Part shown: positions 18,488 through 23,098 of the stretch, piece after piece | How positions within the stretch are numbered: position 1 is the stretch's first letter | Layout: each line of letters begins with the position of its first letter | Assembly: GCA_001917535.1 (NCBI GenBank) | Contig: MNEF01000094.1 | Coordinates: 24,482-88,481 of the forward strand | Direction of reading: 5' to 3' | Length of the DNA: 64,000 nt | DNA from: Candidatus Rokubacteria bacterium 13_1_40CM_69_27 | GTDB taxonomy: Bacteria > Methylomirabilota > Methylomirabilia > Rokubacteriales > CSP1-6 | Program-made: the position numbers and the translations under genes | The notes under the pieces: model-generated | Databases searched by the model: none | The model's input: the letters and a program-made list of their open reading frames with translations, nothing else | Told to the model about the DNA's origin: nothing

Positions 18488-19180
18488 TCAGATGTTCTCG
18501 GGCAGCTTCTTGCGGCCGTTCTGCGCGGACCAGCAGCCGAGCCCGCCGATCGCCGCCGCCAGCGCGACCGGCAGGAACTCGAAGGCGGGAGGCGGCTCAC
18601 CGAGCCACTGCTTGAGCGCGGCGTCCTCGACGATCATCTCGCCCGCGACGTAGCCGAGGATCCCGCCGCCCAGCCAGATGATCCAGACGAAGCGATTCAT
18701 CAGCCAGGCCAGCACGCCGCTGCCCCAGACGACCAGCGGCAGCGAGAGCCCGATCCCGAAGCCCACCAGGAGCAGGTCGCCATGCGCAGCCGCCGCCACC
18801 GCCAGGACGTTGTCCAGGCTCATCACCGCGTCGGCGACGATGATGATCCAGATCGCCTCCCGCAGGGACGTCCCGTGGCGGATGTGGGCCTCGGCGCCCG
18901 TCTCCTGGCGCACCAGCTTGATGGCAATCCAGACGAGGATGAGCCCCCCGACCAGCTGCAGGAACGGAATCCTGAAGAGCAGCGTGGCGATCGTGATGAA
19001 GATCAGGCGCAGGCCCACCGCGCCCGCCGTTCCCCAGAGGCGCCCCAGCAGCTGATGCCGCTTCGGCAGCCGGCGCACCGCCAGCGCGATCACCAGCGCG
19101 TTGTCGCCCGCGAGCGTGAGGTCGATGATCACGATGGTGAACCAGCGGGCCCAGAATTCCGGGTCCAGGAGGAAGGCCAT
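18488..19180 (-). CDS. TerC family integral membrane protein
   Basis: 230 residues with about seven membrane segments. The paired acidic motifs DLTLAGDNALVIALA and DAVMSLDNVLAVAAAAHG are diagnostic of TerC/YjbE proteins, linked in other bacteria to manganese export or metalation of exported proteins. A strong GGGAGG ribosome site precedes the ATG. A 31-residue membrane protein gene ends 11 bases upstream and is probably co-transcribed. Confidence 0.9.
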   Translation of the reverse strand: MAFLLDPEFWARWFTIVIIDLTLAGDNALVIALAVRRLPKRHQLLGRLWGTAGAVGLRLIFITIATLLFRIPFLQLVGGLILVWIAIKLVRQETGAEAHIRHGTSLREAIWIIIVADAVMSLDNVLAVAAAAHGDLLLVGFGIGLSLPLVVWGSGVLAWLMNRFVWIIWLGGGILGYVAGEMIVEDAALKQWLGEPPPAFEFLPVALAAAIGGLGCWSAQNGRKKLPENI

Positions 19181-21359: not shown

Positions 21360-22160
21360 TCAGATTTTCAGGCCCTTGACGACATACTCCTGGGCGAACA
21401 GCGTGACGATGAGGGCCGGGCCGATGGCCATGACCGCGGTGGCGCTCATCAGGTGCCACTCGATGCCCGTCTCGTGGACGAACTGGGCCATGCGGACGGT
21501 GAGCATCGTGGTCCGGCTGCCGGTGAGGATCAAGGCGAAGAGGAACTCGTTCCAGGTGTAGAGCCAGGACAGGATGAAGAGCGCCACGATCCCCGGCGTG
21601 GCCATGGGGAGCGCGATCCGGATGAACGCCCCCCAGCGCGAGCAGCCGTCGATGTACGCCGCGTACTCGGCCTCGGGCTCGATCCCATCGAAGAAGCCCT
21701 TCATGATCCAGGAGAAGAAGCAGATGTGGATGGCGATGTGGGGCAGGAGCAGCCCCAGGTACGTGTCCAGGATGCCCATCCACTGGGTGAGCAGATAGAG
21801 CGGGATGACCCAGGAGATGTAGGGGATGCAGCGGAAGAGGTAGATGAGGCCGAACCAGAGGTTGCTGGCGGCGCCCGAAAAGCGGGAGAGCATGTAGCCG
21901 GAGGTGATGGTGACCGCCAGCGAGAAGACCGTGGCCAGCGTCGCGATGAGCGCGCTGTTGACGAAGGCCTCCTTCATCTCCGGCTTGGCCAGCGCCTCGG
22001 CGAAGTTGCCCAGTGTAAACTCCGTGCCGCGGTGGACGTAGAAGACCCCGGAGGCCGGGCGGATCGCCGTCAGCACCATCCAGGCCACCGGCAAGACCAG
22101 GAGCAGCGTCACCCCGGTGACCGCCAGCCCGAAGAACGCCCGCTTCCACCCCGGGGCTAT
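21360..22160 (-). CDS. carbohydrate-type ABC transporter permease, apparent ATA start
   Basis: About 266 residues with six membrane segments and the MalG-type coupling motif EYAAYIDGCSRWGAFIRIALPMA. No in-frame ATG, GTG or TTG exists between the upstream gene's end and the first membrane segment. Instead a perfect GGAGGTG lies five bases before ATA at 22160, and that ATA overlaps the upstream TAG as ATAG. This arrangement supports ATA initiation; a shorter start at an internal GTG would cut into the first helix. It pairs with the next permease to form the importer channel. Confidence 0.85.
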   Translation of the reverse strand: MAPGWKRAFFGLAVTGVTLLLVLPVAWMVLTAIRPASGVFYVHRGTEFTLGNFAEALAKPEMKEAFVNSALIATLATVFSLAVTITSGYMLSRFSGAASNLWFGLIYLFRCIPYISWVIPLYLLTQWMGILDTYLGLLLPHIAIHICFFSWIMKGFFDGIEPEAEYAAYIDGCSRWGAFIRIALPMATPGIVALFILSWLYTWNEFLFALILTGSRTTMLTVRMAQFVHETGIEWHLMSATAVMAIGPALIVTLFAQEYVVKGLKI

Positions 22161-23098
22161 CGCGACACCTCCACCACGTAGCTCAGGACTTTGTAGAGCA
22201 CACCGCCCACGACCATGATGATGCCCGCGCCGATCATGGAGGCCGCCGCCCCCAGATCGAAGTTCAGGTACACGAAGGCCTGCTTGTAGGCGTAGATGCT
22301 GAAGACCTCGGTGGAGCGCGCCGGGCCCCCCTTGGTGATCGTCCACACGATGTCGAAGACGCGGAAGGCGTCGATCGTCCGGATGGTGATGCAGACCATC
22401 AAGACGGGTCGGAGGAGTGGCAGCGTGATGTTGCGGAACACCTGCCAGGGGCCGGCGCCGTCCATCCGCGCCGCCTCGTGAGGCTCGACCGGCAGCGTCT
22501 GGAGCGCGGCCAGGATCAGGAGGGTGAACCACGGCGTCCACAGCCAGATGTCGGTCCCGATGACGATGGCCAGGCTGGTCCACCGGCTCACCAGCCAGGC
22601 CACCGGCTCCAGGCCGAGCGCTTCGAGGATCACGTTGGCGATGCCGAACTGATCGTTGAACATCCACGTGATCATGATCGCGGCCACCACGGGCGGCACC
22701 ATCAGGGGCAGGAGAATGGCGGTGCGGACGAGCCGCTGGCCCCGGAAGCGCCGGTTGATCAGCGTGGCCAGCCCGAGCCCGGCCAGGAGCCCGCCGCTCA
22801 CCGAGGCCAGCATGAAGAGGAAGGTGTTGGGCAGGACGGTGCCGTAGAAGAGCGGGTCGGCCAGGATGCGGCGGTAATTGGCGAGCCCGACGAAGGTCTT
22901 CTGGGGGTTGAAGAGGCTCCAGCTCCGGAAGCTCGCGTTGGCGCCGATCAGGATGGGCACGATCTGAAAGGCCACCAGGATCACCAGGGCGGGGAGGATG
23001 AGCGCGAGCATGAACCGCTGGCGCTCCCCGAATCTCCCCCGCCGGCGGGGAGCGAGTGTCGTTGCCGTCGCTGGTTCAACTGTCGTCCGAAGCGCCAT
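22157..23098 (-). CDS. carbohydrate-type ABC transporter permease
   Basis: 313 residues from ATG 23098 (MALRTTVEPATATT). The extension to 23140 in the ORF track translates the A hairpin of REP R4 and is rejected. Six membrane segments; LMVPPVVAAIMITWMFND and the MalF-type coupling motif EPHEAARMDGAGPWQVFRNITLPLL are present. The stop TAG overlaps the next permease's ATA start. No ribosome site is obvious. Confidence 0.88.
   Translation of the reverse strand: MALRTTVEPATATTLAPRRRGRFGERQRFMLALILPALVILVAFQIVPILIGANASFRSWSLFNPQKTFVGLANYRRILADPLFYGTVLPNTFLFMLASVSGGLLAGLGLATLINRRFRGQRLVRTAILLPLMVPPVVAAIMITWMFNDQFGIANVILEALGLEPVAWLVSRWTSLAIVIGTDIWLWTPWFTLLILAALQTLPVEPHEAARMDGAGPWQVFRNITLPLLRPVLMVCITIRTIDAFRVFDIVWTITKGGPARSTEVFSIYAYKQAFVYLNFDLGAAASMIGAGIIMVVGGVLYKVLSYVVEVSR

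Follow-up and report, generated by a model that had tools for sequence, protein, structure and literature searches.

The window, a stretch of 64,000 nucleotides on contig C40 of a genome of Candidatus Rokubacteria (G000), carries on its minus strand an operon for an ABC importer, with the order substrate-binding protein, permease 1, permease 2, MaoC-like gene and CoA-transferase; the binding protein, the MaoC-like gene and the CoA-transferase were named by inspection of their sequences. Both permeases match PF00528 (E 7e-22 for permease 1 and 5e-19 for permease 2). Their matches among NCBIfam models, to the UgpA type and the MalG/UgpE type, respectively, lie below the cut-offs. The two co-directional permease genes overlap by four nucleotides of the form NTRR, ATAG at 22160–22157. 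No ATG, GTG or TTG lies within this overlap; ATA stands there instead (Table 1). Relatives of permease 2 in Alphaproteobacteria (L015–L033) show 61–67% identity, far closer than the general background, a degree of sequence similarity which suggests that the importer was transferred between phyla.

Table 1. Features of the permease 1/permease 2 junction, in window coordinates
Feature	Position	Strand	Remarks
Permease 2	21360..22160	-	MalG/UgpE-like inner-membrane subunit of an ABC importer; 266 aa when translation is taken from ATA
GTG, permease 2 codon 17	22110..22112	-	sole nearby downstream canonical start; judged unused
Permease 1	22157..23098	-	313 aa ABC-importer inner-membrane subunit, UgpA/MalF-like; partner upstream of permease 2
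Permease 1 stop, TAG	22157..22159	-	two bases common with ATA; ATAG, 4-nt overlap; from translation
Proposed permease 2 start, ATA	22158..22160	-	site of the orthologues' ATGA/GTGA start; identical in G001
Spacer TCGCG, between GGAGGTG and ATA	22161-22165	-	
Shine-Dalgarno GGAGGTG	22166..22172	-	5 nt ahead of ATA; doubles as coding sequence for the permease 1 C-terminus (VEVSR)

On the minus strand, permease 1 ends GTG GTG GAG GTG TCG CGA TAG (...VVEVSR and the stop), while the permease 2 frame, one base back, reads GCG ATA GCC CCG GGG TGG AAG CGG GCG TTC TTC (IAPGWKRAFFG...). The initial annotation had described the ATA, TAG and GGAGGTG of this junction exactly, coordinates included. Pairing of the Shine-Dalgarno (SD) sequence ahead of ATA with the anti-SD amounts to -13.2 kcal/mol, and its spacing is appropriate for a start at AUA. 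Of 207 ATGA/GTGA overlaps in the part of the genome that was sampled, only 4% have an SD at least as strong. Because the same bases encode the C-terminus of permease 1, GGAGGTG is not independent proof of a start. The junction is weakly folded, being less stable than 197 of 200 shuffled sequences (z +1.79).

It had also been claimed that no canonical in-frame start precedes the first helix of permease 2. This stands in the sense that none is usable, although a GTG does exist 186 nt upstream, the nearest in-frame ATG, GTG or TTG on that side; its SD pairing is nil (0.1 kcal/mol). The permease 2 frame is open far upstream, as would be expected if the protein were made from this GTG, or as a frameshift or readthrough fusion with permease 1. 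Nevertheless, there is no slippery sequence at the junction, and a -1 shift at TCG CGA TAG would, on inspection, need the CGA tRNA to re-pair on GCG. Together with the lack of SD pairing at the distant GTG, this makes either route very improbable.

Comparison of orthologous junctions located the ancestral start. At the exact homologous site, permease 2 begins within ATGA in G007 (also L011) and within GTGA in G003 (also L012) and G011; these three overlaps are preceded by the same TCG-CG(A/G) codons, and permease 1 stops there at TGA. In G057, of family f2, the ATG of permease 2 lies one codon upstream and there is no such overlap. The presence of ATG or GTG at the same site in orthologues indicates that ATA took over an existing start in this genus. 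In the sister species G001, whose permease 2 protein is 97% identical, the junction is the same, GCG-ATA-GCC/TAG. As G001 is a separate assembly, this argues that the ATA is real and predates the split of the two species. The source genome is a fragmented metagenome assembly, in which a sequencing or assembly error might conceal a true ATG/TGA or the like, but such an error is scarcely credible here: the same four bases occur in G001, ATA recurs at another gene, ftsA, in nine genomes, and an ATG, one base away, would leave permease 1 without a stop at this point. As the initial annotation had recognized, changing ATA to ATG converts TAG to TGG; permease 1 would then gain 16 residues before the next TGA.

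The nearest downstream in-frame canonical start is GTG at codon 17 (GTG17), whose SD reaches only -6.7 kcal/mol. Initiation there, or at ATG 28, would shorten the first helix and leave ATA as a dead relic. GTG17 is common to G000 and G001, but it is replaced by GCC in G007 and by ATC in G003, and an internal GTG start was found in none of the orthologous junctions compared (G001, G007, G003, G011 and G057), which upholds the original assignment of the start to ATA. The first helix is predicted to span residues 3–32 (AlphaFold model, mean pLDDT 86, 29-sequence alignment). GTG17 lies in the middle of this predicted helix and a start there would therefore halve it.

Substitutions between G000 and G001 bear on the same question. 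The dN/dS of permease 2 is 0.11, and from codon 28 onward there are 23 synonymous and 4 non-synonymous changes; on these counts the gene has stayed under purifying selection since ATA arose. Codons 2–16, which a start at GTG17 would leave untranslated, carry 1 change in 45 nt compared with about 4–5 expected under neutrality (P between 0.03 and 0.09 according to the rate assumed). Codons 17–27 (22080-22112) differ at 4 of 33 nt, all of the changes being non-synonymous and altering three amino acids, a pattern that speaks for internal initiation and hints that constraint on part of helix 1 has been relaxed locally; the remainder of permease 2 is strongly conserved. The conservation of codons 2–16, the extent of the predicted helix, the weaker SD and the loss of GTG17 in relatives nonetheless render an internal start improbable. 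Since G000 and G001 have diverged little (dS about 0.13), the ATA that they share is in itself a poor indicator of selection.

A coding-potential scan of the source genome, covering 1.49 Mb and then 1.82 Mb (about half of the genome), showed how often such overlaps occur. The 1.82 Mb contained five ATAG and two ATAA overlaps, compared with 31 GTAG/GTAA and 18 CTAG/CTAA. Genome-wide enrichment of ATAG/ATAA was considered and rejected on these numbers, only two of the seven cases having a strong SD. Among the five well-scored ATAG overlaps, a strong SD is found only at permease 1/2; the second strong-SD case is ftsQ/ftsA, and these two stand against 288 ATGA/GTGA/TTGA overlaps in the same 1.82 Mb. 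ATA overlap starts are rare. When all 64 codons were compared for an upstream SD, ATA adjoined ATG in rank (3/34 versus 63/656, with 2.2% overall), but these numbers are too small to carry weight. In 223 kb of G008, the search for further ATA starts gave weak-SD candidates only. No initiator tRNA with a UAU anticodon was found among the tRNA genes at 29 places, an incomplete set; three CAT tRNAs were found, one of them initiator-like by inspection. Two CTGA overlaps with a strong SD have no canonical start within -30 to +36 (L137, minus strand, 13224; L161, minus strand, 5150; reverse-complement coordinates), and CTG is a possible start at both.

The second ATA overlap places the same arrangement at a gene of the divisome. 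The ftsQ/ftsA junction of G000 is an ATAA overlap with a very strong SD (L107, G000:C13, minus strand, ATA at 19090). Its product is FtsA (TIGR01174, 463 bits), and the N-terminus read from ATA aligns in register with solved FtsA chains, query residue 3 falling on chain residue 3. Here too the in-frame ATA occupies the start site of orthologues and no canonical start is usable. At the homologous position, ATA was found in 9 of 50 family genomes, belonging to seven genera, and ATG or GTG in most; the 50 junctions take in nine genomes of uneven completeness. The ATA forms an ATAA overlap in G000, G001, G032, G041 and G044, and an ATAG overlap in G006, G007, G008 and G056. In G031 (L258/L208), ftsA has an apparent ATC start with a strong SD; ftsQ extends to a TGA further downstream there, and the two genes share no 4-nt overlap. 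One ftsA match, on G054:C211, contains a single internal TAG, perhaps an assembly error. Among 20 other genomes of the phylum outside the family, none had an ATA ftsA start, all having ATG, GTG or TTG.

Several of the nine ATA ftsA genes have no canonical start ahead of the ATPase core. The next canonical codon after ATA is number 58 in G032, 36 in G044 and 35 in G007 and G008, so late that initiation there instead of at ATA would cost the protein its conserved N-terminal motif GLDVGTTK; an internal start of the kind considered for permease 2 has no counterpart in these four genomes. Similarly, fusion with the preceding product, which might be entertained for two permeases, is unworkable for FtsQ and FtsA, since the end of FtsQ is periplasmic and FtsA is cytoplasmic, and it would leave the parallel ftsA case unexplained.

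The FtsA tree requires about five changes of the ATA state, at least four of which fall on branches with good support. Two genera, g10 and g14, contain a mixture of ATA and GTG starts. The median SD strength at ftsA is -11.6 kcal/mol at ATA versus -8.35 kcal/mol at canonical starts (Mann-Whitney P 1.6e-5, kinship ignored). In a comparison by independent pairs on the tree, 3.5 of about four pairs agreed (sign test p 0.125). Another gene of these genomes, infC (L225–L254), by inspection mostly lacks ATG, GTG or TTG near its start, the expected position being occupied by ATC or ATA; a non-canonical start is expected in infC elsewhere, as in classical infC.

Position, orthology, conservation in G001, purifying selection, SD strength and recurrence at ftsA, all read from sequence, together make it highly probable that translation of permease 2 begins with the ATA at 22160, that this codon arose from an ancestral ATGA or GTGA that became ATAG, and that initiation is sustained by the SD through a mechanism shared with ftsA. 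We infer the simplest route to be ATGA to ATAA to ATAG, which would keep the permease 1 stop at every step. A near-perfect SD at optimal spacing would hold the 30S subunit, or a ribosome that has just terminated, over ATA, and the third-position A would be accepted by initiator tRNA at reduced efficiency. The output of permease 2 would then probably lie below that of permease 1. In G000 and several of its relatives, ftsA may be served in the same way.

The initial annotation had suggested that the overlap itself holds the rare codon in place. This is valid for ATAG, but such a lock is insufficient as a general account: ATA persists in the five genomes with ATAA at ftsA, where a change to ATG gives ATGA and the stop is kept. 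That persistence, one mutation from ATGA, would be explained if the weak start were selected as a brake on dosage rather than merely tolerated, a refinement of initiation at ATA rather than an alternative to it. FtsA is normally required in low amounts, which agrees with a brake. However, a heterodimeric permease, whose halves are required 1:1, has no obvious need of one, and the association of ATA with stronger SDs resembles compensation; on balance we think selection for a weak start unlikely.

More broadly, we propose tentatively that in this Rokubacteria family AUA is accepted as a start in stop-start overlaps, given a near-perfect SD, and that drift from ATGA to ATAA or ATAG makes the start codons of some genes, that of the divisome gene ftsA among them, alternate repeatedly among ATG, GTG and ATA. 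One possibility is that this lineage has an unusually permissive initiation machinery; another is that selection favours a weak start as a means of setting FtsA dosage.

In conclusion, ATA, a codon that rarely starts bacterial proteins, is very probably the start of a sugar-transporter permease in this soil bacterium, and ftsA of the same bacterium and of several relatives appears to begin likewise. Gene finders generally weigh only ATG, GTG and TTG, with the consequence that they would give permease 2 and ftsA in these genomes a wrong start or report them as truncated. The ftsA genes constitute natural replicates, in which the same gene and site occur with ATG, GTG, ATA or ATC and with measurable differences in SD; this renders two questions testable, namely how far near-cognate starts are tolerated and whether overlaps steer the evolution of start codons.

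Non-canonical starts are familiar from E. coli, where infC begins at AUU and is autoregulated through IF3. The E. coli gene pcnB also starts at AUU (as cited in PMC13009471). Both resemble the present genes in a near-cognate AUN start and in low output, which here would be a prediction, but the codon is AUU there and AUA here.

The view in the initial annotation that ATA initiation is known mainly from infC-like cases and mitochondria proved too narrow, as ccpN and citZ of Staphylococcus aureus also use AUA (PMC13009471) and ftsA in the present genomes apparently does so. According to that report, infC, ccpN and citZ have AUA start codons with a strong SD, the ccpN start is conserved, AUA starts with a strong SD yield about 10–30% of AUG output, and non-canonical starts were proposed to act as a dosage brake. 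Permease 2 is like these cases in having AUA and a strong SD in a real gene. It differs in its ATAG overlap, stop-codon overlap being unmentioned in the passages of the S. aureus report that were consulted, and in that the S. aureus starts were mapped by ribosome profiling and reporters whereas the permease 2 ATA is a start proposed from sequence. AUA starts with a strong SD were thus already known; their stop-overlap form and their recurrence at ftsA appear to be new.

The ATGA and GTGA 4-nt overlaps at which termination-reinitiation occurs (PMC10666635) have the same geometry, being co-directional and joining partners of one complex, as do the two permease subunits here. The present junctions differ in that the start is ATA and the stop TAG or TAA rather than TGA, and ATA/AUA starts are unmentioned in that work on 4-nt overlaps. 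The closest precedent in geometry, with AUA in place of AUG, is an engineered phage GA coat/lacZ junction in E. coli, in which AUAA without an SD gave no coupled downstream expression while AUGA did (PMC9955659). The downstream gene in that construct lacked an SD, whereas that of permease 2 is strong. Since the AUAA junction without an SD was silent, coupling alone is insufficient to explain an ATA start. The anatomy of the permease junction rather fits the S. aureus case, with a strong and well-spaced SD, possibly aided by the ribosome terminating on the overlapping stop.
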